Part shown: piece by piece, positions 915 to 19,263 of the stretch
How positions within the stretch are numbered: position 1 is the stretch's first letter
Layout of the letters: the number at the start of each line of letters is the position of its first letter
Assembly (NCBI GenBank): GCA_030377945.1
Contig: JAUCGD010000040.1
Coordinates: 1 to 22,442, forward strand
Direction of reading: 5' to 3'
Source: Desulfobacterales bacterium HSG17
GTDB taxonomy: Bacteria; Desulfobacterota; Desulfobacteria; Desulfobacterales; Desulfococcaceae
DNA length: 22,442 nucleotides
Notes under the pieces: generated by a model
The model's input: the letters and a program-made list of their open reading frames with translations, nothing else
Database searches by the model: none
Told to the model about the DNA's origin: nothing
Translations under genes and position numbers: made by a program

Positions 915-1454
915 ATGTCAACTCTTAAAGAGAATTACATAAACGAGATTGTTCCTCAACTTACTAAAACCTTTAATTTTATAAATGTATTACAGGTTCC
1001 CAAGTTAGAGAAAATCGTTTTAAATATGGGGTTAGGTGTTGCGGTAACAAACCCCAAGATCGTTGATCTCGCTGCTGCAGAACTTGCACTGATTGCCGGT
1101 CAAAAACCAATAATTACAAGAGCTAAAAAACCAATTGCAAATTTTAAGCTTCGTGCTGACCTGCCAATTGGTTGCAAAGTTACCCTGCGTCGTGAAAAAA
1201 TGTATGATTTTTTTGACAGACTTGTGAGTATTGCTTTACCGCGTGTTAGAGACTTCAGGGGAATATCACCTAAAGCTTTTGATGGCAGGGGTAATTACAG
1301 CCTTGGTATTACCGAGCACATAATATTCCCTGAAATTGATTATGATAAGACCGATAGTATTAAAGGTCTTAATGTTACTATTGTTACAAGTGCAAAAACT
1401 GATGAGGAAGCCAGAGAGTTTTTAAAACTTTTGGGAATGCCTTTTAAAAATTAA
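915..1454 (+). CDS. rplE: 50S ribosomal protein L5
   Basis: The 179 residues match the normal L5 length. Recognisable parts are the N-terminal [14 protein letters not shown] strand region, the [19 protein letters not shown] loop, RVRDFRGIS, and the C-terminal [20 protein letters not shown] helix. L5 binds 5S rRNA with L18 and forms part of the central protuberance, contacting P-site tRNA. The ribosome binding site GGTGGAG (901-907) is 7 bp before ATG. The 101 bp after its stop is the largest internal gap in this operon arm. Confidence 0.98.
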
Positions 1455-1555
1455 CAGCCACGGGTGGATTACAATGGTTATCACCCACAGCAGAACATGA
1501 AAGAGTTAATAAAATTTAAATTAGTTTTTTCATATAAAGGATACAGGAGGAAAGC
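1455..1555 (+). other. 101-bp rplE-rpsN spacer with a small hairpin
   Basis: Other spacers in this operon arm are mostly 1-45 bp. This one holds a weak hairpin, GGGTG at 1462-1466 pairing with CACCC at 1482-1486, with an extra G-T pair inside and a loop of about 14 nt. No T-run follows it, so it is not a typical terminator. No convincing promoter was seen. Its 3' end carries the strong AGGAGG site for rpsN. S8 autoregulates the spc operon in Escherichia coli near this point; whether this hairpin is related is unknown. Confidence 0.3.
1545..1550 (+). promoter_or_regulatory. Strong ribosome binding site that fixes the TTG start of rpsN
   Basis: AGGAGG lies 5 bp before TTG at 1556. No ATG exists at the start of the conserved S14 sequence, so this site decides the start. 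Confidence 0.8.
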
Positions 1556-1741
1556 TTGGCTAAAAAAGCTTTAATCGTAAAGGCGGCAAGAAAACCAAAA
1601 TTTTCTGTGCGTGCCTATAACAGATGCCCCTTATGCGGTAGACCAAGAGGATTTATTAGAAAAGCTGGTGTTTGCAGAATTTGTTTCAGAAAGCTTGCTT
1701 CAGAAGGCAAACTTCCTGGTGTTACCAAATCAAGTTGGTAA
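1556..1741 (+). CDS. rpsN: 30S ribosomal protein S14, short zinc-binding type
   Basis: 61 residues, the size of the short zinc form of S14 rather than the form of about 100 residues in Escherichia coli. C24-X2-C27 and C40-X2-C43 form the zinc site, in [21 protein letters not shown]14 belongs to the 30S head, near the decoding site. Translation starts at TTG, supported by the AGGAGG 5 bp upstream. It lies between rplE and rpsH, the canonical position. Confidence 0.97.
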
Positions 1742-1785
1742 AGTATAGATTGAAAAACAGCAGCAGATTTTAAGGAGATTTTAAA

Positions 1786-2184
1786 ATGGCAAGTAGTGAT
1801 CCAATTGCAGACATGCTTACAATCATTCGAAATGGTGGTAAGGCAGGGTTTGCGAAAGTGGATATCCCCGGATCGAAAATTAAGCTGAAAATGGTGCGGG
1901 TGCTTAAAGAACAGGGATATATCAAAGATTTTAAATACCTGGAGCAAGAAGTCCAGGGTGTTCTTCGCGTTTATCTTAAATATGTGAGTGATGAGCAGCC
2001 AACAATCTTTGGAATTAAAAGAGTAAGTAAACCCTCATGTAGAGTTTACAGCAAATCAAAACAGATTAAGCCGGTTTTAAACGGTCTTGGCATATCAATT
2101 GTTTCAACCTCAAAAGGGTTGATGACTGATAAACAGGCTAGAGAAGCGAATCTCGGCGGTGAAATTCTTTGTAACGTATGGTAA
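1786..2184 (+). CDS. rpsH: 30S ribosomal protein S8
   Basis: 132 residues, normal for S8. The N-terminus SDPIADMLTIIRNG, the central KRVSKPSCRVY and the C-terminal LGGEILCNVW are S8 signatures. S8 binds the central domain of 16S rRNA early in 30S assembly and, in Escherichia coli, represses the spc operon by binding its mRNA. AAGGAG at 1772-1777 lies 8 bp before ATG. The stop is 13 bp before the rplF ATG. Confidence 0.98.
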   Translation: MASSDPIADMLTIIRNGGKAGFAKVDIPGSKIKLKMVRVLKEQGYIKDFKYLEQEVQGVLRVYLKYVSDEQPTIFGIKRVSKPSCRVYSKSKQIKPVLNGLGISIVSTSKGLMTDKQAREANLGGEILCNVW

Positions 2185-2197
2185 GACAGGAGTAGAT

Positions 2198-2740
2198 ATG
2201 TCTAGAATAGGAAAAAAGCCGGTTCAGCTTCCAGATAAGGTTCAAGTTACCCTTAAGGGTGATATGATTTCAGTCAAAGGACCTAAAGGTAATCTTGAAC
2301 GTAAGGTACACCCGGCTGTTAAAATAAATATAGATAATGAGATTGTAATTTTTGACACTGATAAAAGTGACAAGAAAAAAGTTGCTTTACAAGGCTTGTT
2401 CCGCTCTCTTGTAGCCAATATGATAACAGGAGTAACTGTTGGGTATGAGAAAAAACTTGTACTGTCAGGTATTGGGTATCGTGCAGAAGTTAAAGGAAAA
2501 AGCCTTATACTGAATATTGGATACTCCAACCCGGTTGATTTTAAAATTTCTGATGGGGTTAAGGTAAATGTTGAAAAAAATACAGAAATTACCTTGTCTT
2601 GTATAGATAAGGAACTTCTTGGTCAGGTTGCTGCTAACATAAGAGATTTAAGACCACCCGAACCATATAAAGGTAAAGGTATTATGTATGCAGGAGAGAG
2701 AATTATAAGAAAAGCTGGTAAGACTGCTGGTAAGGAATAA
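2198..2740 (+). CDS. rplF: 50S ribosomal protein L6
   Basis: 180 residues from the ATG at 2198, beginning [15 protein letters not shown], which matches the family start exactly. A longer reading from 2159 would overlap rpsH by 26 bp and add 13 residues unlike L6; AGGAG at 2188-2192 supports 2198. The two L6 alpha/beta repeats are visible, ending with [16 protein letters not shown], the C-terminal signature. L6 sits near the sarcin-ricin loop and the factor-binding site of the 50S. Confidence 0.97.
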
Positions 2741-2777
2741 CCTAAAGGTCATACGTAAAAGGCAGGAATATAAAGAT

Positions 2778-3146
2778 ATGGGAAATACATCACCAAGGCT
2801 TGTATCAAGGCTTAAAAGAAAAAAAAGAATCAGGAAAAATGTTTTTGGTACCCAGGAACGCCCAAGAATGAGTGTGTTCAGAAGTTCAAAACATATTTAT
2901 GTCCAGATTGTTGATGATACTCAAGGCACTACACTTGTATCTGCATCTACCCTTGACAGGGAATTTAAAGAGGGCAAGGAAGAGGGCAAAAAGGTTGAAA
3001 TAGCAAAGGTAGTTGGAAGCCTTATTGGCAAGAGAGCTCTTGATAAAGGAATTACAAAAGTAGTCCTGGACAGGAACGGATTTTTATATCATGGTCGCAT
3101 TAAAGCGCTTTCTAACGCTGCTCGCGAAGCAGGATTGAAATTTTAA
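2778..3146 (+). CDS. rplR: 50S ribosomal protein L18
   Basis: 122 residues, the usual length. [29 protein letters not shown] and the C-terminal [28 protein letters not shown] (parts of the conserved L18 core and end) identify it. The N-terminus is rich in lysine and arginine for 5S rRNA binding; L18 brings 5S rRNA into the central protuberance with L5. Canonical place between rplF and rpsE; 18 bp separate its stop from the rpsE start. Confidence 0.97.
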
Positions 3147-3164
3147 ATTTTTGGAGGGACACCC

Positions 3165-3659
3165 TTGGCAAGACAGCAGATGGAAGATAATGGATTAATT
3201 GATAAAGTCGTTAGGATCAACAGGGTTGCAAAAGTTGTAAAAGGTGGTAGAAATTTTACTTTTAGTGCACTCGTTGTTGTTGGTGACGGTGAAGGCAGTG
3301 TCGGTTACGGTCTTGGGAAAGCAAAAGAAGTACCCGAAGCAATTAAAAAAGGCATGGAAAAAGCTAAACGGAATATGGTCAAAATTTCTTTGCTTGATGG
3401 AACGGTTCCTTTTGAAGTTGTTGGTAGAGCCGGTGCCGGCAGAGTTTTACTAAAACCTGCATCCCCTGGTACTGGTTTGATAGCAGGTGGTGGAATTCGT
3501 GCTGTCCTTGAAGCAGTTGGAGTGACTGATATTTTAACAAAATGTATTGGAACCCATAATACTCAAAATATTGTAAGAGCTACAATGGCGGGGCTTCAAT
3601 CCCTTTGTTTAAAAGAAGATGTAGCAAAACGACGCGGGCTTAAACCCGAAGAAATATAA
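3165..3659 (+). CDS. rpsE: 30S ribosomal protein S5
   Basis: 164 residues. It has the double-stranded-RNA-binding-like N-terminal domain (about 9-75, [37 protein letters not shown]) and the C-terminal domain with [15 protein letters not shown] and [15 protein letters not shown] [11 protein letters not shown]5 affects translational fidelity and has mRNA-unwinding activity at the entry site. The start is TTG at 3165, because GGAGGG at 3153-3158 is 6 bp upstream and the conserved sequence begins right after it. Residues in the region associated with spectinomycin resistance look ordinary ([11 protein letters not shown]). Confidence 0.97.
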
Positions 3660-3669
3660 AGGTTTAAAA

Positions 3670-3852
3670 ATGGCTGATAAAATAAAAGTTACACAGATAA
3701 AAAGTACAATTGGAAGACCAGCCAAACATGGCAGGATTGTCCGTTCTCTTGGATTAAGAAGAATGCATCATACTGTTGAACATAATGCTGACTCAGTAAT
3801 TTTGGGACAGGTTAAAAAAGTTTCTCATCTTGTGAGAGTCGAGGAGGTATAA
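3670..3852 (+). CDS. rpmD: 50S ribosomal protein L30
   Basis: 60 residues, normal for L30. KVTQIKSTIGRPAKHGRIV and LGLRRMHHTVEH are diagnostic. It is 10 bp after rpsE and 1 bp before rplO. Its last codons (Glu-Glu-Val, 3841-3849) double as the ribosome binding site of rplO, so translation of the two genes is probably coupled. Its own Shine-Dalgarno is weak and overlaps the rpsE stop. Confidence 0.97.
   Translation: MADKIKVTQIKSTIGRPAKHGRIVRSLGLRRMHHTVEHNADSVILGQVKKVSHLVRVEEV
3841..3848 (+). promoter_or_regulatory. rplO ribosome binding site inside the end of rpmD
   Basis: GAGGAGGT encodes the last residues of L30 and lies 5 bp before the rplO ATG at 3854. It is the strongest Shine-Dalgarno in the left arm. 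Confidence 0.8.
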
Positions 3853-3853
3853 T

Positions 3854-4288
3854 ATGCAGCTTCATGATCTATCACCTGAGAAGGGTGCAAAAAAAAATAG
3901 AAAAAAAGTTGGCAGAGGGCCGGGCTCTGGTATGGGTAAAACATCCACACGAGGTCATAAAGGTCTTAAAGCAAGGTCTGGCGGAAATGTAAGGCCTGGT
4001 TTTGAGGGCGGTCAAATGCCAATTTACAGAAGGCTTCCCAAAAGAGGTTTTTATAATATATTTAAAACAAACAATGCTGTCTTGAATGTTAAAGATCTGG
4101 ACCGATTTGAAGATGGCACGACCATAGATATTGATGTGTTAAGAGATGTCGGGATGGTCAAGGGTCGTGTGGATGGAGTCAAGATTCTTGGCACAGGAGA
4201 AGTTACAAAAAAATTCTCTTTAAAAAATGTTCTTGTTTCCAAAACTGCAAAAGAAAAAATTGAAACTGCTGGTGGAAGCATAGAATAA
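3854..4288 (+). CDS. rplO: 50S ribosomal protein L15
   Basis: 144 residues, as in the family. The glycine- and arginine-rich N-terminal tail (about 10-50: GRGPGSGMGKTSTRGHKGLKAR, GGNVRPGFEGGQMPIYRRLPKRGF) threads through 23S rRNA in late 50S assembly; the C-terminal half is the globular domain (VKILGTGEVTKKF ... AGGSIE). It starts one base after rpmD and precedes secY by 30 bp, the standard order. Confidence 0.98.
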   Translation: MQLHDLSPEKGAKKNRKKVGRGPGSGMGKTSTRGHKGLKARSGGNVRPGFEGGQMPIYRRLPKRGFYNIFKTNNAVLNVKDLDRFEDGTTIDIDVLRDVGMVKGRVDGVKILGTGEVTKKFSLKNVLVSKTAKEKIETAGGSIE

Positions 4289-4318
4289 CTAAATAGAAGT
4301 GATGTAAGGAACATATAG

Positions 4319-5635
4319 ATGATCCAAAATAGCTACCAGAATTTGTTTAAACTACCTGAGCTTAAAAGAAAGATTTTTATTACTTTGGCGCTGCTCTTTG
4401 TTTACCGGATCGGTATTCATGTGCCCACGCCTGGTGTAAACGGAGCTGCTCTTTCTTCTTTTTTTGCTGCTGCTGAAGGTACACTGTTTTCCATGTTCAA
4501 TATGTTTTCAGGCGGCGCTTTAGAAAGATTTTCCATATTTGCATTGGGAATAATGCCTTATATTAGTGCTTCTATTATCCTTGAGTTGATGACTGTGGTT
4601 GTACCGCATCTTGCCCAGCTTAAAAAAGAGGGTGATGCCGGTCGAAAAAAGAAAACTCAATATACAAGGTATGGAACAGTAATTTTGAGTATTATTCAGG
4701 GGCTGGGTATCAGCGTGGGTTTGGAATCCATGACTTCACCGTCTGGTGTTCCCATTGTTCCCTATCCTGGATGGGGTTTCAGACTTGTCACTATAATAAC
4801 GTTGACAGCAGGAACATCGTTTATCATGTGGCTTGGTGAACAAATCACTGAAAGAGGCATAGGAAATGGTATATCCCTTATTATTTTTGCAGGTATTGTT
4901 GCAAATATGCCTTCAGCCATGGGAAACACTGTACGGCTGATGACAACTGGAGAAATGGGAATATTCGGAATTATTATTCTTGCAGTTCTCATGGTTGCGG
5001 TTATTGCAGCTATCATTTATATGGAACAGGCACAAAGACGAATTCCAGTACATTATGCCAAGCGTGTTGTTGGCAGGAAAATGTATGGCGGGCAAACTTC
5101 GCATCTTCCTTTAAAGATAAATACCGCAGGTGTTATACCGCCAATTTTTGCATCTTCCATTATAATGTTCCCTACTACTATTGCACAGTTTATTGATATA
5201 CCGATTATGAAAACTGTGGCAAGCATGTTCAGCCCAGGAACAGTCTGGTACTATCTCCTGTATATAGGATTTATCATATTCTTCTGTTTTTTCTATACAG
5301 CTGTACAGTTTAATCCTGAAGATGTTGCTGAAAATATGAAGAAAAACGGTGGATATATTCCCGGTATAAGACCTGGTAAAAGAACCAGTGAATATATTGA
5401 CAGAGTACTGACACGAATTACACTTGGCGGTGCTTTATATGTCTCTGCTGTTTGTGTATTACCGACTTTCCTGATGGGAAAATTTAATGTTCCCTTCTAT
5501 TTTGGCGGTACTGCTCTTTTGATTGTTGTCGGTGTCTCCATTGATACTATTTCCCAGATTGAATCACATTTGATTACAGGTAATTATGATGGTTTTCTTG
5601 GAAGATCTGGCACCAAAAGAATAAAAGGCAGGTAG
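4319..5635 (+). CDS. secY: Protein translocase channel subunit SecY
   Basis: 438 residues with ten hydrophobic segments, the normal size and topology of the SecYEG pore in the inner membrane. Signatures include the N-terminal [10 protein letters not shown], the plug-region [30 protein letters not shown], the cytoplasmic loop [13 protein letters not shown] and the C-terminal [23 protein letters not shown] and [15 protein letters not shown]. It exports unfolded proteins with SecA and inserts membrane proteins with FtsY/SRP. TAAGGA (4305-4310) is 8 bp before ATG. Only 40 bp separate it from infA; adk and map do not follow. Confidence 0.98.
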
Positions 5636-5675
5636 GTCGGATAAACGTTTAAGATTTAAGGAGATTGATAAGACT

Positions 5676-5894
5676 ATGGCAAAAGAAGAACCCATAAAAG
5701 TTGATGGGAAAGTACTGGAAACACTGCCCAATGCCATGTTCAAAGTTGAGTTGGAAAATAAGCATGTATTGCTTGCTCATATTTCAGGCAAAATGAGAAT
5801 GCATTTTATTAAGATTCTGCCGGGTGATACAGTATCAGTTGAAATTTCACCCTATGATTTAAGTCGTGGCAGAATCACATATAGATTTAAATAG
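5676..5894 (+). CDS. infA: Translation initiation factor IF-1
   Basis: 72 residues, the standard IF-1 length, a single OB-fold: [37 protein letters not shown] and [15 protein letters not shown] are near the family consensus. IF-1 occupies the 30S A site during initiation and helps IF-2 and IF-3. AAGGAG at 5658-5663 is rather far (12 bp) from the ATG. Its stop overlaps the rpmJ ribosome binding site. Confidence 0.98.
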
Positions 5895-5904
5895 GAGTAA
5901 ATAG

Positions 5905-6018
5905 ATGAAAGTCAGAGCATCTGTAAAAAAAATATGCAGGAATTGTAAAGTAATTAAAAGACGTGGTGTCCTAAGAGTTATTTGTATAAACAAACGCCAT
6001 AAACAGAGGCAGGGATAG
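5905..6018 (+). CDS. rpmJ: 50S ribosomal protein L36, zinc type
   Basis: A 37-codon gene from ATG 5905 to TAG 6016-6018, starting [21 protein letters not shown]11, C14, C27 and H32 form the complete L36 zinc ribbon, so this is the zinc-dependent form. L36 stabilises 23S rRNA near the L7/L12 stalk base. AGGAG at 5893-5897, inside the infA stop region, is 7 bp upstream. Canonical position between infA and rpsM. Confidence 0.97.
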
Positions 6019-6030
6019 GGGGAAAGAAAT

Positions 6031-6402
6031 TTGGCACGTATTGCAGGAGTTGATTTACCAAGAGATAAACATGCATGGGTAGCTTTAACCTATATTTTCG
6101 GAATAGGTCGCACAAGATCAAAACAGATACTTGCTCAAACAGGTATTGATCCAACTACGAAAGCAAATGATCTTACTGAATCAGAAGTTAATGATATCAG
6201 AAAAATCATTGATGCTGATTTTAAAGTTGAAGGTGAGCTTAGAAGTGAAGTTTCCATGAATATTAAAAGACTTATGGACTTAGGTTGCTACAGAGGATTA
6301 CGCCATAGAAAAGGCCTTCCCTGTCGTGGTCAAAGGACTAGTACAAACGCCAGAACAAGAAAAGGTCCAAAAAGGACTGCAGTTAAAAAGAAACAAGCAT
6401 AA
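6031..6402 (+). CDS. rpsM: 30S ribosomal protein S13
   Basis: 123 residues starting at TTG 6031, since the conserved [21 protein letters not shown] begins there and a purine-rich AGGGGGAAAG site precedes it. The helix-two-turn-helix core ([13 protein letters not shown]) and the C-terminal [23 protein letters not shown] tail (here [20 protein letters not shown]) are intact. S13 lies in the 30S head and contacts P-site tRNA and L5 in bridge B1b. It opens the alpha-operon part (rpsM-rpsK-rpsD-rpoA-rplQ), 12 bp after rpmJ. Confidence 0.97.
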
Positions 6403-6423
6403 TATAAAAGGTATTCAATAATT

Positions 6424-6819
6424 ATGGCTAAAAAGTCTAAAAAAGTTATGTCCAAAAAACGGGTGAGAAAGAACATTTCCTCAGGAATTGCTCACATTCA
6501 ATCCACGTTTAATAATACAATCGTTACAATTGCCGATGAAAACGGGAATACTATTTCGTGGTCAAGTGCAGGCATGCAGGGGTTTAAAGGCTCAAGAAAA
6601 AGCACACCTTTTGCAGCAAAACTTGTTGCAGAGGATGCCGGTGCAAAAGCTATGGAGCATGGTATGAAAAATCTTGGTGTGTTTGTAAAAGGTCCAGGAC
6701 CAGGAAGAGAATCAGCTTTAAGGGCATTACATGCGCTTGGATTCCAGATTTCCATGATTAAGGATGTTACACCGGTTCCCCATAATGGTTGCCGTCCGCC
6801 AAAAAGAAGAAGAGTTTAA
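6424..6819 (+). CDS. rpsK: 30S ribosomal protein S11
   Basis: 131 residues, usual length. [21 protein letters not shown], the [18 protein letters not shown] region and the C-terminal [15 protein letters not shown] are strict S11 signatures. The asparagine-glycine pair in [10 protein letters not shown] is where S11 is often isomerised to isoaspartate in other bacteria. S11 forms the 30S platform near the E site, with S6 and S18. The ribosome binding site is weak (AAAGG, 12 bp from ATG). Confidence 0.98.
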
Positions 6820-6850
6820 GTTTTTAAGGTTTTGATAAAGGAGAAAAACA

Positions 6851-7477
6851 TTGTCAAGATATAGAGGATCAGTTTGCCGACAATGCAGACGTGAAAATAT
6901 GAAGCTTTTTTTGAAAGGTGATAGATGCTTTTCAGATAAATGCAGTTTTGATAGAAGAGGATATCCTCCAGGACAGCATGGACAAAGAAGAACTAAATTG
7001 TCAGATTATGGAATTCAGCTGAGAGAAAAACAGAAAGTCAGAAGACTTTATGGTATATCTGAAAAACAGTTTAGAATCTCTTTTAAAAAAGCTGACAGGA
7101 AAAAAGGTATTACAGGTACAAACCTTTTAAGCCTTTTGGAAACCCGCTTTGATAATACAGTTTTTAGAATGGGATTTGTTAATTCCAGAAATCAGGGTAG
7201 ACATTTTGTAAAGCATAACCATTTTACAATAAATGGTAAAAAGGTTAATATACCTTCTTATCAGGTAAAAAAAGGTGATGTTGTTGAACTTCGTGAAAAA
7301 AGTAGAAAAATACAATTTATAATAGATTCTCTTGATGCCATTGTAAGACGCGGTGTTCCTCAATGGATCGAGATTAATAAAGAGAATTTTAAAGGCGAAG
7401 TTGTTGGAATACCTGTGCGTGAAGATATCACTCTTCCCATCCAGGAACAATTAATTGTAGAGCTTTACTCAAAATAG
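6851..7477 (+). CDS. rpsD: 30S ribosomal protein S4, zinc type
   Basis: 208 residues starting at TTG 6851. The N-terminal zinc site C9-X2-C12-X13-C26-X4-C31 is complete, followed by RRGYPPGQHGQRRTKLSDYG and the S4 RNA-binding domain (about residues 98-160, LLETRFDNTVFRMGF, GRHFVKHNHFTINGKKV). S4 nucleates 30S assembly and, in Escherichia coli, represses the alpha operon. GGAGAAAAA precedes the start. It is 31 bp after rpsK and 46 bp before rpoA. Confidence 0.97.
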   Translation: MSRYRGSVCRQCRRENMKLFLKGDRCFSDKCSFDRRGYPPGQHGQRRTKLSDYGIQLREKQKVRRLYGISEKQFRISFKKADRKKGITGTNLLSLLETRFDNTVFRMGFVNSRNQGRHFVKHNHFTINGKKVNIPSYQVKKGDVVELREKSRKIQFIIDSLDAIVRRGVPQWIEINKENFKGEVVGIPVREDITLPIQEQLIVELYSK

Positions 7478-7523
7478 ACAGGCTATTAATATGTTTATCC
7501 AAATATTTATTCAGGAGATATAA

Positions 7524-8546
7524 ATGTCATCTGAGAAACTTGCATATGTAAACTGGAGAGAGATGATCAAGCCGGAAAAGCTTGATGTAACAACAACTTC
7601 AACATATGGTAAATTTGTTTGTGAACCCCTTGAAAGGGGCTTTGGTATTACTATAGGAAACTCTTTGCGCCGAATTATTTTGTCATCTATATATGGTGCG
7701 GCAATTGTTTCTGCTAAATTTGAGGATGCTCTTCATGAATATAGCGTGATATCCGATGTACGACAGGATATCGCTGAGATTATTTTGAATCTAAAAGAGC
7801 TCAAACTCAAGGTTGATGACATAGACGAGAAGATATTGACATTGAATGTCAAGGGTGAATGTGAAGCCACTGGTGCTGATATTGTCAGCCCTGATGGAAA
7901 AGTTGAAGTCCTGAATCCGGAACAGCTTATTGCTTCAGTCTCAAAAAAAGGCAAATTAAGTATAACAATGGTTGTGAAAACCGGAAAAGGTTATGCCCTT
8001 GCTGCTGCAAATAAAGATGAAGAGGCTTCAATTGGAACAATTCCTGTTGACAGTGTGTTTTCTCCAATCAAAAAAGTAAAGTATGTTGTAGGGACATCAA
8101 GGATCGGGCATAAAACAGACTATGATAAGCTTACGCTTGAAGTTTGGACAGATGGTTCAGTAACACCCGATGATTCTGTTGCCTATGCTGCAAAAATTTT
8201 AAAAGAGCAGTTGAATCCATTCATCAATTTTGATGAGGATCTGGAGCCAGACTATGCTGATGAAAATTCAGATGATTCAGATGCTGGTTTGAATGAAAAT
8301 ATCTATAGATCAGTTGATGAACTTGAATTATCTGTCAGAAGTTCTAATTGCCTGAAAAATGCAGATATAACCAGTATTTTTCATTTGGTTCAAAAAACAG
8401 ATACAGAGATGCTCAAAACCAAAAATTTTGGCAGAAAATCATTGAATGAAATAAAGGAAGTACTTGCAACCATGGAACTTTCACTTGGTATGGATCTTGA
8501 GGGATTTGACCCGCCAGAAGAAGAGTTCAATGAAGAAGGAGAATAA
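7524..8546 (+). CDS. rpoA: RNA polymerase alpha subunit
   Basis: 340 residues. The N-terminal dimerisation and assembly domain (about 1-230) has FVCEPLERGFGITIGNSLRRIILSS-type sequence and GTSRIGHKTDYDKLTLEVWTDG; the C-terminal domain (about 265-330) has LELSVRSSNCLKNA, holding the arginine used for UP-element contact, and GRKSLNEIKEVL. The linker (about 238-262) is unusually rich in Asp and Glu. Alpha nucleates the polymerase core whose beta and beta' genes lie at the other end of this window. AGGAG at 7513-7517 is 6 bp before ATG. Confidence 0.98.
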   Translation: MSSEKLAYVNWREMIKPEKLDVTTTSTYGKFVCEPLERGFGITIGNSLRRIILSSIYGAAIVSAKFEDALHEYSVISDVRQDIAEIILNLKELKLKVDDIDEKILTLNVKGECEATGADIVSPDGKVEVLNPEQLIASVSKKGKLSITMVVKTGKGYALAAANKDEEASIGTIPVDSVFSPIKKVKYVVGTSRIGHKTDYDKLTLEVWTDGSVTPDDSVAYAAKILKEQLNPFINFDEDLEPDYADENSDDSDAGLNENIYRSVDELELSVRSSNCLKNADITSIFHLVQKTDTEMLKTKNFGRKSLNEIKEVLATMELSLGMDLEGFDPPEEEFNEEGE

Positions 8547-8552
8547 AAGAGC

Positions 8553-8909
8553 ATGAAACATAGAAAATCAGTATTAAAATTAAATAGAACATCAAGCCAT
8601 AGAAAGGCTATGTTTCGGAACATGGTAACTTCCCTGTTTAAACATGATAAAATCAAGACAACCGAAGCAAAAGCAAAAGGTTTAAGAAAAATTGCAGATA
8701 AGATGGTAACCCTTGCCAAAAGAGGAGACCTGCATGCCAGACGTCAGGCTCTTTCTGTAATTCGGGAAAAAGATATAGTTCATATCCTTTTTGATGAAGT
8801 AGCTCAAAAATTTAATTCAAGACAGGGTGGCTATACAAGAATTATCAAACTTGGGCCAAGAAAGGGTGATGTAGCATCCATGGTACAGATTGAATTGATT
8901 TATGATTGA
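8553..8909 (+). CDS. rplQ: 50S ribosomal protein L17
   Basis: 118 residues, typical for the short bacterial L17. [24 protein letters not shown] and the C-terminal [24 protein letters not shown] are diagnostic. L17 lies on the solvent side of the 50S near the exit tunnel. It starts 6 bp after rpoA, whose last codons supply GAAGGAG as ribosome binding site. It is the last gene of the left arm, followed by the hairpin at 8974-9007. Confidence 0.98.
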
Positions 8910-9012: not shown

Positions 9013-10029
9013 TCATCTCTTGTTTTGTTTGGCTTTATAGAGGCTTTTATCTGCTGCTTTTAAAAGTATTGCTGAAGAATCCATTCCCTTTTCAAATACA
9101 GAAGCAAGACCATGGCTTAATTTTACATGAAAATTTATATTTTCTGAAGATAAAGGTTCTTGGGCGAGTTTTTGTTTTACTCTGTTCACAAAGGTTTGTG
9201 CCTGGCTTTTATTTGTAGAGGGTGAAATTGCCACAAATTCATCTCCTGCAAATCTTGCAATAATATCAGAATCTCTTTTCAAACTAATCAGGCAGTTTGC
9301 AACGTGGCACAGGGCAAGATCTCCGTTGTCATGGCCATAGGTATCATTAATAGATTTAAAATCATCAAGATCAAGAAAAAGAATGCTTAGATCAATATGA
9401 TAGCGTTTGGATCTTTGAAACTCTCTTTCAAGGATTTTCTCCATAACTCTGCGGTTTAAAAGTTTGGTCAGGGGATCATGGAAAGCTAAAAATTTTAATT
9501 TTTCATGTGCAGTTACATTGGAAAGGCATAGAGATACTTTAAGTGCCAGTTGTTCCAATAGTGAAGTGTCAATCCCCGGTTCAAACCTGTGGATATCCTG
9601 GTCTGCCTGGTTAAAACTGCCCACAATTTTACCATCCATGGTAATTGGTGCAATGGCAATGGAACCAATATGATAATTTGATGCCATGGGTATCAATGGT
9701 TTAAAGTCGTCTATCTCTTTATTGGATAGCAAAGGTTTTAGACGCTTCTTGGTTATATCTGTAAAGTTTTCTTTTGATATAAATGAGGTTGATGTGCTTA
9801 AAAGCTCAGAGTCCTGAATATTATGAAAATATTTTGAAATGCTGCTCTCTTCAATAATGGAGACCCATGTATAGGGAACTGAAAATTTTGAACTGATTTC
9901 AGATAACAGCTTTTCAATAAAATCCTGAAAATTTAAGATAGTTAAAATACTGAGTTCAATTTCATGAAATTTTCTGGCAACAATTTCATTGTGTTTAACT
10001 CTTTCGAAAAATGATTTTGGGATTTTCAT
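9013..10029 (-). CDS. Diguanylate cyclase with DUF484/GAF-like sensor domain (GGDEF family)
   Basis: 338 residues, predicted soluble: no signal peptide or membrane segment. Residues about 10-175 resemble a DUF484/GAF-type sensor domain (KHNEIVARKFHEIELSIL, IGSIAIAPI). Residues about 178-338 are a GGDEF domain: DPLTKLLNRR at 185-194, the metal-binding region FLDLDDFKSINDTYGHDNGD, and the signature as AGDEF at 261-265. Ala replaces the first Gly, a variant known in active enzymes of the family. RDSD at 252-255, five residues before it, is an intact inhibitory (I) site, so the likely activity is GTP to cyclic di-GMP with product feedback. No EAL or HD-GYP domain. The ligand is unknown. The ATG at 10029 has no strong Shine-Dalgarno. 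It converges on rplQ. Confidence 0.9.
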   Translation of the reverse strand: MKIPKSFFERVKHNEIVARKFHEIELSILTILNFQDFIEKLLSEISSKFSVPYTWVSIIEESSISKYFHNIQDSELLSTSTSFISKENFTDITKKRLKPLLSNKEIDDFKPLIPMASNYHIGSIAIAPITMDGKIVGSFNQADQDIHRFEPGIDTSLLEQLALKVSLCLSNVTAHEKLKFLAFHDPLTKLLNRRVMEKILEREFQRSKRYHIDLSILFLDLDDFKSINDTYGHDNGDLALCHVANCLISLKRDSDIIARFAGDEFVAISPSTNKSQAQTFVNRVKQKLAQEPLSSENINFHVKLSHGLASVFEKGMDSSAILLKAADKSLYKAKQNKR

Positions 10030-10501: not shown

Positions 10502-11425
10502 ATGAAAATAAAATTACTGAATGGGGGCCACACATTACGTTCAGGCATTAAATTGAATTTTAAAAGGAGCTTAAAATTCCTATGTTTTCTGCTTTTTTTA
10601 TTAATCCCTCTATCTGTTTTTGCAGAAGAAGAAGTATTGAGAATCCTGACCGGGCAGGGGCATGCTCCAAAAAAAATCATTGAACAATTCGAAAAACAGA
10701 TTCAAACTAAATATCAGCACAAAATAAAACTGGAGGTTACCTTTTTAACTGGGCCTGATGATTGGTACAAAACCATCAGAGGAGGGAAAGTTGATTTGGT
10801 TTTGTTAACCCATCACCATTTTAAGGACAAGCGCTTTAATTATATAAAAAATCATTTTTTGCTGCCGCTTGATTTGAAGAACATACCAAATTTTCATCAT
10901 GTGATACCAGCGCTTCAAAAAGCTGATTACTTAACTGATAACGGGAAAATATATGGGTCTCCAGTCAGTCAGGGACCATATGGCCTGGCCTATAACACGG
11001 CAATATTAAAAGCACCGCCTGAAAGTTGGGATATCCTTTGGGACCCTCGTTTTAAGGACAAATATATCATTGGAGCCAATGAATACATATATAACGTGAA
11101 TATCACTGCTTTGGCATTAGGGTATTCTAGAGAAACCATTAACAATTTTGACAATTTAAATAATCGTGAATTCAGAAAAAAACTCAGCCAACTGGCTGCA
11201 AATTCACATTCATTCTGGATTGGTGTGGACACTGCTGACGATTTGTCCGGTATGACTCTGGCTACATCATGGGGCGATTCTCTGGGCCCGCTTAACAAAA
11301 GAGGAAAACCCTGGAAGATGGCAGAACCCATCGAAGGAATGCCCTGCTGGATTGATAATTATGCCATTACATGGACTTTGAAGGACACTTTTCTTTATGG
11401 GTGTGTTGAAAATCTGATCAGGTAA
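10502..11425 (+). CDS. Periplasmic solute-binding protein, PotD-like, 3' end lost at a rearrangement junction
   Basis: The open frame has 307 codons. Residues 1-41 form a signal peptide: basic region KLNFKRSLK, hydrophobic core LCFLLFLLIPLSVF, likely cleavage after VFA41. The mature part resembles type II solute-binding proteins of the spermidine/putrescine or iron group (PotD-like): VDLVLLTHHHF, YGSPVSQGPYGLAYN, SWDILWDPRFKDKY, ATSWGD, and EGMPCWIDNYAI at 279-289. In PotD-like proteins that last motif is followed by roughly 40-60 more residues. Here, from about residue 292, the frame is antisense to the start of rplD, so the last 15 or so codons are not native. No permease or ATPase gene adjoins it. 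It could also have been the sensor part of a longer membrane protein. The substrate cannot be told. Promoter at 10447-10476. Confidence 0.75.
   Translation: MKIKLLNGGHTLRSGIKLNFKRSLKFLCFLLFLLIPLSVFAEEEVLRILTGQGHAPKKIIEQFEKQIQTKYQHKIKLEVTFLTGPDDWYKTIRGGKVDLVLLTHHHFKDKRFNYIKNHFLLPLDLKNIPNFHHVIPALQKADYLTDNGKIYGSPVSQGPYGLAYNTAILKAPPESWDILWDPRFKDKYIIGANEYIYNVNITALALGYSRETINNFDNLNNREFRKKLSQLAANSHSFWIGVDTADDLSGMTLATSWGDSLGPLNKRGKPWKMAEPIEGMPCWIDNYAITWTLKDTFLYGCVENLIR
11370..11383. other. Junction: truncated solute-binding gene meets truncated rplD
   Basis: On the + strand, likeness to solute-binding proteins runs to WIDNYAIT (codon ending 11371). On the - strand, likeness to L4 runs from its start to IKKSVLQ (codon 34, 11378-11380). 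Both end within about 10 bp of each other, each losing its 3' part. No insertion sequence ends, target duplication or repeat were seen here. Confidence 0.75.
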
Positions 11426-11479
11426 TTCAGCTTCAGACACTTTTTTACCTGCATTGTTTAATACATCTACAGCAGCCAT
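11378..11479 (-). pseudogene. rplD: 50S ribosomal protein L4, first 34 codons only
   Basis: From ATG at 11479, preceded by GAGGAA (11489-11484), the - strand reads MAAVDVLNNAGKKVSEAELP and continues to about IKKSVLQ, matching the N-terminus of bacterial L4, which is about 200 residues long. Beyond codon 34 the frame enters the antisense of the solute-binding gene and stops at 11267, giving a non-native tail of about 36 residues. It follows rplC, the canonical order. As L4 is essential, a full rplD must exist elsewhere in the genome, or this contig is chimeric here. Confidence 0.85.
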
Positions 11480-11637: not shown

Positions 11638-12261
11638 CTAATTTATTACTTTCCGTACTTCCAATATTCCTGTTTTACACCCAGGCACAGGGCCTTTAAC
11701 AAGCAGAAGATTTTCTTCATGCTTAATATCTACAATTGTGAGATTTTTTACAGTTTCTCTATTTGTCCCCATATGCCCTGGCAATTTTTTACCTTTAAAA
11801 ACTTTTCCCGGCCAGGCGCTATTTCCTATTGAGCCTGGTTTGCGGTGATTTCTACTACCATGTGTTTCTGGTCCACGACTGAACCCATGTCTTTTTATTG
11901 TACCTTGAAACCCCCGCCCCTTGGAAATCCCGGAGATATTAACTTTATCTCCAACAGTAAACATATCTGTTGAAAAAGTAGCACCTGATTCAACTTCATC
12001 TATGTCATCTGTCCTGAATTCTCTTAAAACACGGAATCCTTTTTCAGTAGTTTTTTTCAGGTGTCCACTAATGGGCTTATTAAGTTTCTCAACTTCTTTT
12101 TCATCAAACCCAAGCTGTAGAGCATTATAACCATCTGTCTCTTTTGTTTTAATCTGGGTTACTACACAGGGACCTGCCTGCACCACAGTTACAGGAATCA
12201 ATTTTCCATCTGCAGAAAACACGTTGGTCATTCCAATTTTTTTTCCAAGTATTGCACTCAT
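11638..12261 (-). CDS. rplC: 50S ribosomal protein L3
   Basis: 207 residues, normal for L3. The N-terminus ([20 protein letters not shown]), [23 protein letters not shown] and [20 protein letters not shown] are diagnostic; the long internal loop reaches toward the peptidyl-transferase centre. L3 starts 50S assembly. The glutamine in [13 protein letters not shown] is the residue methylated by PrmB in enterobacteria. It follows rpsJ by 18 bp with only a weak Shine-Dalgarno, and is the last complete gene of the right arm before the broken rplD. Confidence 0.98.
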
Positions 12262-12279
12262 AATTTATTCTCGTTTGAA

Positions 12280-12588
12280 CTATAATTTAATTTCTACATC
12301 CACGCCCGGCGAAAGATCAAGTTTCATTAATGCATCAACTGTCTGCTGGGTTGGTTCAAGAATATCCATCATTCTTTTATGCGTTCTTATTTCAAATTGT
12401 TCCCGTGATTTTTTATTTACATGGGGAGAACGAAGAACAGTGAATTTATTTATCCGTGTAGGCAGTGGTACCGGTCCTACAATTCTGGCTCCAGTCTTCC
12501 TTGCTGTATCAACTATATCCAAAGAAGATTGATCTATAAGCTTATGATCATATGCTTTAAGCCTGATTCTAATTTTAGTTTTCAACAT
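12280..12588 (-). CDS. rpsJ: 30S ribosomal protein S10 (NusE)
   Basis: 102 residues. [51 protein letters not shown] and the C-terminal [12 protein letters not shown] are standard S10. S10 belongs to the 30S head and also links NusG and NusB to RNA polymerase in antitermination. Only 20 bp separate it from tuf, with AGGAAT as ribosome binding site, so there is no room for the long S10 leader of Escherichia coli; str and S10 genes appear to be one transcription unit here. Confidence 0.98.
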
Positions 12589-12608
12589 GATAGAACGTAT
12601 TCCTATAC

Positions 12609-13796
12609 TTACTCTACAATTTCACCGATAACACCGGCACCAACAGTACGTCCACCTTCTCTGATTGCAAACCTAAGCTCTTTTTCCATTGCGATTGGAT
12701 TTATAAGCTCTACATTTATGGTTGCATTATCTCCGGGCATTATCATTTCAACGCCTTCGTCAAGGGTCAGTACACCTGTAATATCTGTTGTTCTGAAAAA
12801 GAACTGAGGTCTGTAACCACTGAAAAATGGAGTGTGACGTCCGCCTTCTTCTTTACTCAATGCATACATCTCTGCTTTGAATTTTGTATGGGGAGTTATT
12901 GTCCCAGGTTTGGCTACAACCTGACCTCTTTCTACTTCGTCTCTTTTGGTTCCACGAAGAAGAAGCCCTACATTATCACCAGCCTGGCCTTCATCAAGAA
13001 GTTTTCTGAACATCTCAACTCCGGTACAGGTTGTTGTAGCTGTCTCTCTGATTCCAACAATCTCTACTGATTCACCGGTTTTAACAACTCCACGGTCTAT
13101 TCTTCCTGTTACAACAGTTCCACGGCCTGAAATACTGAACACGTCCTCTATGGGCATAAGAAATGGTTTTGCTGTATCTCTTTCTGGTTCCGGCACATAG
13201 GAATCAAGCACTTCAAGAAGCTCAAAAATTGGTTTGGCGTCTTCATCGTCAATAGCTTCACATTCAAGGGCTTTAAGAGCGCTTCCTTTTATGATTGGAA
13301 CATCTGTAAACTCATAGCTTTCAAGAAGCTCCTGCAATTCCATTTCAACAAGCTCTATCAACTCTTCATCATCCACCATGTCGCATTTATTTAAAAATAC
13401 AACTATTTTAGGTACACCTACCTGGCGGGCAAGAAGGATATGCTCTCTTGTCTGGGGCATGGGACCATCATCTGCACTTACTACAAGTACTGCTCCATCC
13501 ATCTGGGCGGCGCCTGTAATCATATTTTTAATATAGTCAGCATGGCCCGGGCAGTCCACATGTGCGTAGTGACGGTTATCTGTCTCATACTCTACATGGG
13601 CTGTTGCTATTGTTATTCCACGCTCTCTCTCTTCTGGAGCTTTGTCTATCTCATCAAAGGGAACAAAATCAGCATGGCCTTTCATGCCAGCCAACTTGGT
13701 AATCGCTGCTGTAAGCGTAGTCTTTCCATGATCAATATGACCTATTGTTCCTATGTTCACATGCGGCTTTGTCCGCTCAAATTTTTCCTTAGCCAT
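12609..13796 (-). CDS. tuf: Elongation factor Tu
   Basis: 395 residues. GTPase motifs are intact: GHIDHGKT at 19-26, the switch I threonine in RGITIATAH (T62), DCPGH at 81-85 and NKCD at 136-139. Domain II (about 210-300) and domain III with [15 protein letters not shown] and the C-terminal [15 protein letters not shown] follow. EF-Tu brings aminoacyl-tRNA to the ribosomal A site. It lies directly after rpsG; fusA, normally between them, is absent. Two near-identical Shine-Dalgarno units precede the ATG (13801-13829). Confidence 0.99.
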
Positions 13797-13800
13797 CTTC

Positions 13801-13829
13801 TTTACTCCTCTTGGTTTATTCCTCTTTGG
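13801..13829 (-). promoter_or_regulatory. Tandem duplicated ribosome binding site before tuf
   Basis: On the - strand, CCAAAGAGGAATAAA is followed at once by CCAAGAGGAGTAAA, then AGAAG and the tuf ATG. The second unit (GAGGAG) is the working Shine-Dalgarno; the first (GAGGA) is an imperfect copy 15 bp upstream. Confidence 0.6.
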
Positions 13830-13872
13830 CTTACCTAATTCTATAAAATATTATTAAAACAATTTAATATAA

Positions 13873-14340
13873 TTACCATCTGAAATGAGCAAATGCCTTG
13901 TTGGCTTCTGCCATTTTATGTGTATCTTCTTTTTTCTTCATTGCTCCGCCACGACCGTTATAAGCATCAAGCAACTCTGAAGCAAGTTTATTGGAATAAC
14001 TTTTTTCAGAACGGTTTCTACTGAAATTAATCAGCCACCGAAAGGCAAGAGCTGTCTGTCTGGCAGGTTTAATATCAGTTGGAACCTGGTATGTAGAGCC
14101 GCCAATTCGTCTGGATTTAACCTCGACTGCAGGCCTTATATTGTCAATTGCTTTCTTGAATATATCTAAAGCAGGCTCTCCAATTTTTTCTTCTGCCATG
14201 CGCAAAGCACTTACTACTGATTTGCGGGCTGCATTCTTTTTTCCGTTTTTCATGACGCAGTTAACAAATTTTGCAGCAAGTTTTTCTTCTACTGTAGCAC
14301 TCTTTGTTATATTATCAAGGTTGATTTCTTTAACTGCCAT
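13873..14340 (-). CDS. rpsG: 30S ribosomal protein S7
   Basis: 155 residues, the usual length. KFVNCVMKNGKKNAARK, PAVEVKSRRIGGSTYQVP and the C-terminal GGAMKKKEDTHKMAEANKAFAHFRW identify it. S7 starts assembly of the 30S head, lies at the E site, and represses part of the str operon in Escherichia coli. AAGGAC lies about 8 bp before ATG. Normal place after rpsL (57-bp spacer); 76 bp then separate it from tuf. Confidence 0.98.
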   Translation of the reverse strand: MAVKEINLDNITKSATVEEKLAAKFVNCVMKNGKKNAARKSVVSALRMAEEKIGEPALDIFKKAIDNIRPAVEVKSRRIGGSTYQVPTDIKPARQTALAFRWLINFSRNRSEKSYSNKLASELLDAYNGRGGAMKKKEDTHKMAEANKAFAHFRW

Positions 14341-14397
14341 TCTTTATGTCCTTATTTGGAAACCGTTTTTAAATAATTTCCACTACTATTTTAATAT

Positions 14398-14769
14398 TTA
14401 TTTAGGTCTTTTTGCACCATATTTTGAACGACCATGTCTTCTATCATCTACTCCGAGAGTATCGAGAGCGCCTCTGACTATATGGTACCGAACACCTGGA
14501 AGGTCCTTTACTCTGCCACCCCTGACAAGAACAACTGAATGCTCCTGGAGGTTGTGACCCATTCCTGGTATATATGCAGCAACTTCCATTCCAGTGGTCA
14601 AACGAACCCTTGCTACTTTTCTTAAAGCAGAGTTAGGTTTTTTTGGAGTTGATGTGTACACCCTGGTGCATACACCACGCTTCTGAGGACCACCATTTAA
14701 AGCAGGGGTACTAACCTTTTTTTCCGCTTTTTTTCTACCTTTTCGAACCAACTGATTAATGGTCGGCAT
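14398..14769 (-). CDS. rpsL: 30S ribosomal protein S12
   Basis: 123 residues. [30 protein letters not shown] and [21 protein letters not shown] are near consensus. The residues where streptomycin resistance usually arises, K43 and K88, are wild type, and P91 is conserved; D89 is the residue methylthiolated by RimO in some bacteria. S12 forms the decoding centre. It is the first gene after rpoC and has its own promoter (14827-14855). AAGGG, about 8 bp before ATG, or GGAG farther up may bind the ribosome. Confidence 0.98.
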
Positions 14770-14803
14770 AACTTTCCCTTACGCTCCTTCTAAAATTTAA
14801 CCT

Positions 14804-14819
14804 TTGTCATATACGACAA
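14804..14819. repeat. Near-perfect 16-bp palindrome at the rpsL transcription start
   Basis: On the - strand TTGTCGTATATGACAA: the arms TTGTC and GACAA pair perfectly, with 14 of 16 positions symmetric. With +1 predicted at about 14820, it forms the very 5' end of the mRNA, where it would fold as a small hairpin, or it could be a DNA operator. Confidence 0.5.
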
Positions 14820-14826
14820 AATAATA

Positions 14827-14855
14827 ATTCTACTTTCATTTGGTTAAGATGTCAA
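14827..14855 (-). promoter_or_regulatory. Strong sigma70 promoter of rpsL (str operon)
   Basis: On the - strand, TTGACA (14855-14850) is a perfect -35, a 17-bp spacer follows, and TAGAAT (14832-14827) is a 5-of-6 -10. It lies in the 104-bp spacer after the rpoC stop, giving a leader of about 50 nt before rpsL. It should boost rpsL-rpsG-tuf-rpsJ-rplC above any read-through from rpoC. Confidence 0.8.
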
Positions 14856-14873
14856 GTTTTTTTTATCTTTCAT

Positions 14874-17800
14874 TTAAACTTGTTCAACTTCCCTAGCCTC
14901 TACTCCAAGATCAGCATATCCCGGGAAGCCTGTTCCGGCAGGAATTAGACGACCCATGACAACATTTTCTTTCAATCCTTTAAGACCGTCAAATTTTCCT
15001 TCTATTGCCGCCAGAGTCAATACTTTTGTTGTCTCCTGAAATGATGCTGCAGAGAGAAAACTGTCCGTGGACAATGATGCTTTTGTAATACCAAGAATCA
15101 GAGGTTCACCCTTGGCAGGCTCCCCACCATTTGTGGCAACTTCCCTGTTTGTCTCTTCAAACAAAAGCCTGTCAACCTGTTCGTCAGGAATAAATTTAGT
15201 ATCACCAGTAGTAATAATTTTTACTCTTCTCATCATTTGATGAATTACAACTTCAATATGCTTATCATTAATCCTTACACCCTGGAGTCTGTAAACTTCC
15301 TGTACTTCATCCACAAGGTATTTGGCAAGAGCTACCTCACCCATGATATTCATAATATCCTGGGGGTTGGCACTTCCTGCAACAAGAGGATCTCCGGCTT
15401 TAACATAATCACCGTCATAAACTGTGACATGGAGTCCTTTGGGAATAGAGTATTCCTTCTTTTCACCAACTTCAGCAGGGATAACAGCAACTTTCTGCCT
15501 TCCTTTTGTCCCTTTTGACACCTCAATATACCCATCAATTTCAGTGAGTACTCCAGGATCTTTTGGCTTCCTGACTTCAAACAGCTCAGCAACTCGTGGG
15601 AGACCACCTGTGATATCCTTGGTTTTTGTTGTTGCTCTTGGCAGTTTTGCAATTACATCTCCTGCCATAATCTGATCATCTTCATCAACTATAAGAATAG
15701 CATTAACAGGCAGATAATACCTTGCAGTTGTTTTAGCATTAGGAAGTTTAATTCCTTTGCCATCTTGATCTTTTATAGTAATCCTTGGCCGGATCTCTGC
15801 ATCTTTACCTTCAATAATTGTCCGGGAGACCTTACCAGTTACAGGATCAATCTGTTCTTGAACAGTGGATCCAACTTCTATATCTGCAAATCTGACACGA
15901 CCTGAAACTTCTGTAATAATCGGGGTCGTAAAAGGATCCCAGACAGCAATAACATCACCCGGTTCTACTTTGTTTCCATCTTTGAGAAGTAAAGTTGCAC
16001 CATATATTACAGTCTCTTTGGCTATTTCGCGACCATCTGCACCTGTAATAGTTATACCGCCGCCTTTTCTGTTCATTACAATTACTTCATTATCAGCAGA
16101 AACAACGGTCTGAATATCATCATTATATTTTAATATGCCGCCAACCCTTGCTTTAATTTCTGCAACTTCAACTTTTCTTGAGGCAGTACCACCAATATGA
16201 AAAGTTCTCATGGTCAACTGGGTTCCAGGCTCACCAATGGACTGGGCAGCAACAATACCAATTGCCTGACCAATTTCAACGGTTACACCGTGGGCAAGAT
16301 CACGACCATAGCATGTTGAGCAGACACCATGTCTTGAATTACAGGTAAGAACAGAACGAATTTTAACTTTTTGAACCCCGGCATCTTCAATTTTTTTAAC
16401 ATCAGCTTCATCAAGTTCTTTATCCGCACTAACAATCAATTCATCTGTATAGGGATCAAGCACATCTTCTTGTATAACTCTTCCAAGCAGTCTCTCTCCC
16501 AGGGTTTGAATTATTTCACCCCCTTCATACAGTGCTTCGACCTCAATACCATTAATGGTACCACAATCTGTTTCAATAATGGCACAGTCCTGCCCAACAT
16601 CAGCAAGGCGCCTGGTCAAATATCCTGAATTTGCAGTTTTCAAGGCAGTATCAGCAAGACCTTTACGCGCACCATGTGTGGAAATAAAATATTGCAGTAC
16701 AGAAAGACCTTCTCTAAAACAGGCAGTAATAGGATTTTCAATAATTTCACCAGAAGGCTTAGCCATCAAACCACGCATACCTGCAAGTTGGCGCATCTGA
16801 TCTTTACTGCCACGGGCGCCGGAGTCTGCCATTACATAAACTGCATTTAACTCTTCAGGCGTATCATCTTTTTCTGAACTCTTGGGATTTTTCATAACTT
16901 TCATCATGGCATCGGCAATATCATCTGTGCTTTGAGCCCAGATATCCACAACTTTATTATATTTCTCTCCCTGGGTAATGAGTCCTTCTGAATATTGTTC
17001 TTTGATATCTTCAATACTTTTTTCAGATTCGGCAATTATCTTCCATTTTTCATCCGGGATTATCATATCTCCAATACATATAGAAAGACCACCAAGAGTT
17101 GAATGCTTATATCCAATATCTTTAAGCCTGTCAGAAAGAATAACAGTCTCTTTTAAACCAATATTTCGATATGCATAATCAATGAGTTTTACAATGGAGG
17201 ATTTGTCCATGAGCCTGTTTACAAGATTAAAAGGCAGAGTAGTTTTTCGTTCATCCACTTTAAATATGGTATAATAGTCACCCACTTTTCTGACACCGGT
17301 ATGCTGATCCTGTTTCATACCATAAAGCTGTTCAACAACTATTTCTGATACCTGGAAAATATTTTTAAACTCTTTTCTGGTAAGAAGGTCTGTCTTGCCT
17401 TTACTCTTTTTAACTTCCTTGTCAGTATATTTTTTTAAGACCTTGTCAAACTCTTTTCCAGCCTTTAATTCTTCCATTGCAGCTTCACAATCTTCCAGGG
17501 TTTGAGTTCTAATCCTGGTCAAAGACAAGAGTGTGTCACCGGGAATTGACTCCCATAGAAGAATTCTTCCTGTGGTGGTTTCATATATTTCATTTTCAAT
17601 TCTAACTTTTATTCGGGCATGGAGTGCAAGTTCACCTGCATCATAAGCATGTCTTACTTCTTCAAGGCTTGAAAATGAAATTCCTTCTCCTTTTTGCTTG
17701 TTTATTGCCCTTGTCATATAATAAATTCCAAGAACAATATCCTGGGTGGGCACAATAATTGGCTGACCATTTGCCGGAGACAAAATATTATTGGTGGATA

Positions 17801-19253
17801 GCATCATTATTCTTGCCTCAAGCTGTGACTCAAGGGAAAGAGGTATATGAACTGCCATTTGATCACCATCAAAATCTGCATTAAAAGCCGGACAGACCAG
17901 AGGATGAAGCTGAATTGCTTTTCCTTCAATCAAGACAGGCTCAAATGCCTGGAATCCAAGGCGATGAAGTGTTGGTGCTCTGTTTAACATGACAGGATAC
18001 TCTTTTACGACAGATTCAAGTGCGTCCCACACTTCAGTCTCTTCTCTCTCAACCATCTTTTTGGCACTTTTAACTGTTGACACAAGACCTTTTTTCTCAA
18101 GATAACTATAAATAAAAGGTTTAAACAATTCCAGCGCCATTTTTTTAGGAATACCACACTGATGGAGTCTTAACTCTGAGCCAACAGTAATAACAGTACG
18201 ACCAGAGTAATCTACACGTTTACCAAGAAGGTTCTGCCTGAAGCGTCCCTGTTTACCCTTTAAGGTATCACTTAACGATTTCAAAGGCCTTTTATTCGTA
18301 CCTGTAACCACCCTTCCGTGACGACCATTATCAAAGAGAACATCCACAGCTTCCTGGAGCATTCTCTTTTCATTTCTGACAATAATATCAGGAGCATTGA
18401 GATCAACAAGTCTCTTCAAACGGTTGTTTCTGTTTATTACCCTGCGATAGAGGTCATTTAAGTCAGAAGTTGCAAAGCGCCCGCCCTCAAGGGGGACAAG
18501 TGGCCTTAAATCCGGAGGAAGAATTGGACATGCAGTCATGATCATGCGTGTAGGTTCAATACCAGATGTTAAAAATGCATCTATAACTTTAAGTCGTTTG
18601 GCCATTTTTTGTTTTTTAGCCACAGATTTTGTCAAACGAATTTCTTCTCTAAGTTCATCATGCACCTGCTGCAGATCAATTGCTTCAAGCAGTTTTAAAA
18701 TTGCTTCGGCGCCAATTCCTGCTTCAAAATCTTCTCCAAAAGTATCAAGAGCTTCATAATATTGATCATCGGTCAAAAGCTGAAGAGGTTTCATGCCAGT
18801 ATCTTTAGGATCAATAACAATATAGGAATCAAAGTATAAAACTTTTTCAAGATTTTTCAGAGTCAAATCAAGAACATTTCCTATCTTGCTGGGCAGGCTT
18901 TTCAAAAACCAGATATGCGATACAGGTGAGGCAAGTTCAATATGAGCCATTCTCTCCCGGCGCACTTTTGACTGAATGACCTCAACACCGCATTTTTCAC
19001 AAACAACCCCGCGGTGTTTCATCCGTTTATATTTACCGCAATTGCATTCGTAATCCTTGGTAGGACCAAAAACCTTTGCACAGAAAAGCCCATCTCTTTC
19101 AGGCTTGAAAGTTCTGTAATTTATTGTTTCCGGTTTTTTAATTTCACCATTAGACCATGATCTTATCTGGTCTGAAGACGCAAGGCTAATTTGAACGCCC
19201 TGATAAACCTTAGGATCTTTTGGTTTTGCGAAGAAATCATATATATTGTCCAA
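14874..19253 (-). CDS. rpoC: RNA polymerase beta' subunit
   Basis: 1459 residues, starting at TTG 19253, with AAGGAG (19265-19260) overlapping the rpoB stop. First zinc site C70, C72, C85, C88; catalytic NADFDGDQ with D460, D462, D464 binding the active-site magnesium; funnel and rim helices about 730-790; bridge helix about 847-883; second zinc site C897, C971, C978, C981; trigger loop about 1005-1230. The trigger loop is interrupted by a long SI3-type insertion (about 1025-1212), as in Escherichia coli. Numbering equals that of Escherichia coli through D464 and is shifted by 83 at the second zinc site because of an extra segment at about 573-671 (see 17241-17537). Lies 10 bp after rpoB. Confidence 0.99.
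17241..17537 (-). other. RpoC insertion, residues about 573-671, parvulin-like
   Basis: In Escherichia coli beta', the strand ending in GRAILW is followed almost directly by LPYSIVNQ. Here [11 protein letters not shown] (563-572) and LPFNLVNR (673-680) are separated by about 100 residues. The order of elements resembles a parvulin peptidyl-prolyl isomerase (PpiC/rotamase): a strand LLSLTRIR, a helix with [17 protein letters not shown] (594-610), a [11 protein letters not shown] turn, and a final strand [11 protein letters not shown] (660-670), comparable with GYHIIKV plus charged end in PpiC. Both histidines typical of active parvulins are missing (the first strand has none; Thr662 replaces the second), so it is probably a binding or structural module. 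Confidence 0.55.
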
Positions 19254-19263
19254 TGTCTTCTCC

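Follow-up and report, generated by a model that had tools for sequence, protein, structure and literature searches.

Two inverted joins, each within a ribosomal-protein gene, in a 22.4 kb Desulfobacterales contig: very probably a laboratory artefact

Results

Gene content and layout of the contig

The window analysed here, a stretch of 22,442 nt assigned to Desulfobacterales bacterium HSG17, seems to be a whole contig, since the contig recorded as encoding its own ORF has this same length. RpoA places it closest to Desulfobacula-like Desulfobacteraceae, with 91% identity for locus L001 and 93% for locus L004 among the best 80 of 576 confirmed loci. The contig is made up of two arms, each 11 kb long (Table 1). 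The left arm begins within a gene that we take, from operon order, to be rpsQ and continues in the normal order to rplQ, which is adjoined by a gene for a GGDEF protein (diguanylate cyclase) and followed by a gene for a solute-binding protein; the right arm begins with the start of rplD and runs to rpoB, which is open at the contig end. The gene order within each arm is that of the normal rpoBC-str-S10-spc-alpha cluster of Desulfobacula-like relatives; in the relatives, however, the whole cluster runs in one direction, whereas the arms of the contig face each other.

Most of the ribosomal gene names in both arms are presumed from operon order together with sequence, and secY likewise from its tblastn position and operon order; names based on Pfam are those of the GGDEF and solute-binding genes only. 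In the right arm tuf comes directly after rpsG without fusA (12609-14340). Since the same order is found in the six relatives that were read there (G001, G003, G005, G006, G007 and G029), the absence of fusA between rpsG and tuf is normal for the group.

Table 1. Features of the 22,442-nt window, with coordinates, strand and the evidence for each.
Feature	Position	Strand	Evidence
Inverted secY fragment at the contig end	1..20	-	exact 20-nt match
Second inverted join (secY antisense, rpsQ sense), sharing 5 nt (AAGAT)	16..20		reverse-complement match; blastn start
rpsQ (S17; presumed name), C-terminal part with stop, cut by the second join	16..151	+	alignment with 6 relatives
Left arm, rplN to rplQ, normal order	169..8909	+	ORF list; comparison with relatives
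secY (presumed name)	4319-5635	+	tblastn position; operon order
Source of the inverted fragment, inside secY	5152..5171	+	exact reverse complement of 1-20
GGDEF (diguanylate cyclase) gene adjoining rplQ	9013..10029	-	Pfam PF00990, E 2.8e-43; L002-L006 have homologues downstream of rplQ
Solute-binding protein gene, 293 codons, cut by the first join	10502..11380	+	homologue alignment; Pfam
First inverted join, 2-nt overlap TG	11379..11380 (uncertainty 11379-11387)		homologue ends; blastn starts; per-base matches
rplD (L4), first 33 codons, cut	11379..11479	-	L4 likeness; DNA match to relatives
Right arm: rplC, rpsJ, tuf, rpsG, rpsL, rpoC, rpoB	11638..22442	-	ORF list; relatives

The join between rplD and the solute-binding protein gene

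On the plus strand the solute-binding protein gene passes straight into antisense rplD near 11379-11380, which confirms the observation in the initial annotation that two genes are cut here at one point. The L4 N-terminus does start at 11479 on the minus strand, as was then proposed, but it comprises 33 codons and ends at 11381, and not 34 codons ending at about 11378; thereafter the likeness of the frame to L4 is lost. The L4 start was sought in ten relative genomes and is present in eight of them. Blastn identity to the rplD of these relatives begins at 11379 in all eight cases: bases 11379 and 11380 match 8/8, base 11378 matches 0/8 and the bases to its left give only sporadic matches. Base 11384, which lies inside the rplD match, differs from all eight relatives.

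From the other side, the solute-binding protein is indeed cut, though not at about 11371 as previously placed: its alignment with ten homologues extends to residue 293, which ends at 11380, about 9 bp beyond. Its nearest complete homologues have 384-389 aa, against 293 codons here. The two residues that follow in the fused ORF of the contig, K-D, are absent from all 24 of the best-ranked motif-fitting homologues and occur in 10 of the 98 that fit the motif (out of 119 listed besides the contig's own protein). Because of these ten, identity to the solute-binding protein could extend to about 11387, giving an overlap of up to 9 nt (11379-11387), in which case the odd base 11384 would derive from the solute-binding gene. 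On the alignments we would therefore set the join within 11379-11387, best placed at 11379/11380. The 2-nt overlap at this position is uninformative by itself, since 18% of random breakpoint pairs have one in common.

The sequence around the join gives no sign of a repeat, as had been noted before: there is no inverted repeat of at least 9 nt in 11280-11480 and a repeat search found none at the join. Evidence on mobile elements was taken from the ORF list and four Pfam scans. A 9-nt direct repeat, GACACTTTT, occurs at 11384-11392 and 11436-11444, inside the rplD fragment, and is probably due to chance. The fused end of the solute-binding ORF appears in none of the ten aligned homologues or the 24 best motif-fitting ones (two overlapping sets, drawn from the best 120 of 325 homologues passing). 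A search of related genomes for the same junction had been advised, and the exact 27-nt join sequence was found in 0 of the 114 loci examined.

A second join at the left end

A further inverted join, which the initial annotation had missed, lies near the left end of the contig. The repeat search revealed that the first bases of the contig are the reverse complement of secY, the match of 1-20 to 5152-5171 being exact; in a shuffle test no such match arose in 100 trials (0/100), even allowing 3 mismatches. Blastn identity to the rpsQ region starts at base 16 for G004 (locus L112) and at 20-23 for L001, L003, L005, L006 and L007, the only five, out of nine listed loci, that reach the left end of the contig. 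The AAGAT overlap sits inside a run of 11 matching nucleotides out of 12 (16-27), a match that random breakpoint pairs within the contig produce at a rate of 7.5e-5; the single mismatched base, 21, carries the rpsQ base. With this mismatch included, the echo covers 1-27 and 5145-5171. The join spans about 5.1 kb, from rpsQ to secY; 20 nt beyond it the contig stops.

Origin and spacing of the arms

Identity to G001 is 88.3% for the rplN-rplQ part and 86.0-86.8% for the right arm, which matches two G001 contigs (86.0% for the one carrying rpoB-rpsG). For G029 the values are 76.1% for the left arm and 75.8% for the right, the right-arm sum including matches to a second tuf. Since the arms are about equally distant from G001 and from G029, they are likely to come from one genome; two close strains are a possible source. 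Identity to G004 is uneven, at 96.9% over 16-1159 (rpsQ-rplE, on contig C85 of G004) against about 85-90% in the other stretches compared, and the high stretch may represent a recombination tract or a mixed-strain MAG contig. On that same G004 contig, rplD-tuf is only 87.2% identical.

In G001 and G029 rplC, rplD and the genes from rplN to rplQ lie in one direction and in normal order. G001 has 3935 bases between rplD codon 33 and the start of rplN, and the contig has 11211 from rplN to the first join, which would put the two cut points of this join 15,146 bases (~15.1 kb) apart, in agreement with the earlier figure of about 15 kb. The estimate depends on two assumptions: that the solute-binding gene belongs natively after the GGDEF gene, and that the left arm continues unbroken beyond base 10137, where its alignment to L004 stops. 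The solute-binding protein gave no tblastn match at E 1e-3 in the best 80 RpoA loci; in ten relative genomes it had some match in eight, strong in two only (53% and 45%).

rplD in related genomes

Seventy of the 86 genomes in the family of G006 contain 71 rplD starts between them, and 16 have no match. All but one of these starts (70/71) lie in open frames of at least 210 aa; the remaining one is in a 95-aa frame heading for a contig end that lies 140 bases off and probably cuts it short. In the relatives whose loci were read, rplC and rplD are intact and adjacent. Full-length L4 was also sought in a large protein collection (7918 of 8000 scored candidates passing). The exact 33-residue L4 start of the contig is absent from the 120 matches listed, among which the closest (P0128) agrees at 31 of 33 residues, so these gave no intact copy from the same species. 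In the MAG G003, contig C781 has two copies of rpoC on one strand (L105 and L108; 1-4320 and 14538-15425; residues 21-1458 and 1-296), which may reflect a misassembly or a wrapped circle.

Discussion

The contig is, with high probability, a chimera formed in vitro, most likely during phi29 multiple displacement amplification (MDA) of one Desulfobacula-like cell or of a low-input sample. That the joins arose in vitro, that phi29 was the polymerase and that the cell has an intact rplD are inferences, and the broken ribosomal gene is very probably a product of the laboratory and not of biology. The initial annotation already gave an artefact at least an even chance against a real event; the artefact is now strongly favoured, because of the second inverted join, the fit of both arms to one genome, the normal gene order in the relatives and the published statistics on amplification chimeras.

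Those statistics are taken here from excerpts of three reports. Lasken and Stockwell (2007; PMC1855051) describe 475 chimeras that phi29 produced from a single E. coli cell, of which 406 (85%) were inverted, with about one chimeric junction per 22 kb and at least 2 complementary nucleotides in 76.8% of the chimeras. Most of the inversions (337/406, 83%) spanned less than 10 kb and 69/406 exceeded this distance; above 10 kb, inverted (69) and direct (58) joins occurred in about equal numbers, and just 34.8% of the former showed complementarity. Elsewhere, overlaps of 3-13 nt are given for more than 95% of chimeras, with distances mainly below 5 knt (PMC5372508), and same-strand read pairs are reported to rise 10-20 fold in amplified samples (PMC3842359).

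Such amplification fits well with a 22.4 kb contig that has two inverted joins, both of them inside a ribosomal-protein gene. As in the excerpted account of MDA chimeras (PMC1855051), the joins are inverted, the intervening segment is left out, the overlap is of a few nucleotides, the joined loci share a neighbourhood and the frequency is about one junction per 22 kb. At both joins the second segment is inverted relative to its genomic orientation, taking the native direction from the relatives. An overlap of 2-21 nt is the rule for most such chimeras; it is 5 nt, exact, at the second join and 2 nt, possibly up to 9, at the first. The second join, at about 5.1 kb, is typical of MDA in both distance and overlap. 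The first is less so: at ~15.1 kb by G001 spacing it lies beyond the usual limit of 10 kb, and a 2-nt overlap at that distance would be atypical. Its inversion is also the weaker evidence, because inverted and direct joins are about equally common at such distances. Also counting against a chimera are the uneven identity to G004 and the length of the arms; as both are 11 kb long, the chimeric molecule must have been well represented.

In the mechanism that we propose, a freed 3' end bearing the sense strand of the solute-binding gene (or, in the other direction, a strand from rplD) would act as primer, anneal by a few bases to the displaced strand of the other locus ~15 kb away and, on extension, leave the two arms joined back to back. 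A further event of the same kind would have joined rpsQ to antisense secY ~5.1 kb away. At that join the mismatched base 21 is the rpsQ base, so the strand out of rpsQ probably primed the synthesis, with secY serving as its new template.

A chimera could instead have come from metagenome assembly of two species, or from ligation during library construction without phi29. The sample may be a metagenome, identity to G004 varies along the contig and putative chimeric read pairs make up ~3% of an unamplified control as of amplified samples in the excerpt consulted (PMC3842359). In that control, however, same-strand (inverted) pairs are only 0.02%, against two inverted joins here. A de novo assembler would have no evident reason to create the first join from correct reads, because no repeat was found there, and a join between species is disfavoured by the nearly equal identities of the arms to G001 and to G029. 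We consider an origin of this kind very unlikely.

Of the explanations in which the join is real, a partial inverted duplication, in which the stretch from rpoB to rplD codon 33 is present once more, inverted and downstream of the solute-binding gene, while an intact operon persists elsewhere, would produce the same geometry and the same short overlap, would keep L4 function safe and would find no difficulty in a 15 kb span. Tandem inversion duplication, a term in use for bacteria, likewise joins neighbouring loci in inverted orientation through a short overlap, as in the contig. Such duplications are expected to carry a short palindrome or inverted repeat at the join; in 11280-11480 the contig has no inverted repeat of at least 9 nt. 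They require, however, parental copies that survive in direct order beside the inverted one, and the contig has an unrelated second inverted join: a natural origin would need this join at 16-20 as well, again cutting a ribosomal-protein gene. The near-absence of partial rplD genes among the 71 family matches, the one exception being at a contig end, and the lack of the 27-nt join sequence in 114 loci also argue against it, and we regard the duplication as unlikely. Likewise unlikely is that a Desulfobacula-like cell has a true inverted duplication of the rpoBC-str-S10 region, asymmetric and an intermediate in gene amplification, with the truncated rplD as junction debris. Least credible, to the point of being negligible, is a simple inversion broken within rplD and within the solute-binding gene. 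One side of it would resemble the first join, but the S10 operon would be split and the cell would lose its rplD, an essential gene in model bacteria; the relatives read keep rplC and rplD intact and side by side.

With an in vitro chimera as the favoured reading, the gene order across the first join is unsafe to use, as are the predicted proteins in which the solute-binding protein and L4 are cut short. The second join suggests a cheap check for amplification chimeras, which is to scan contig ends for short stretches that echo a nearby gene in reverse complement. Were an asymmetric inverted duplication nevertheless true, it would raise the dosage of RNA polymerase and ribosomal genes, and a real join would be a rare snapshot of the inverted amplification of core transcription and translation genes.
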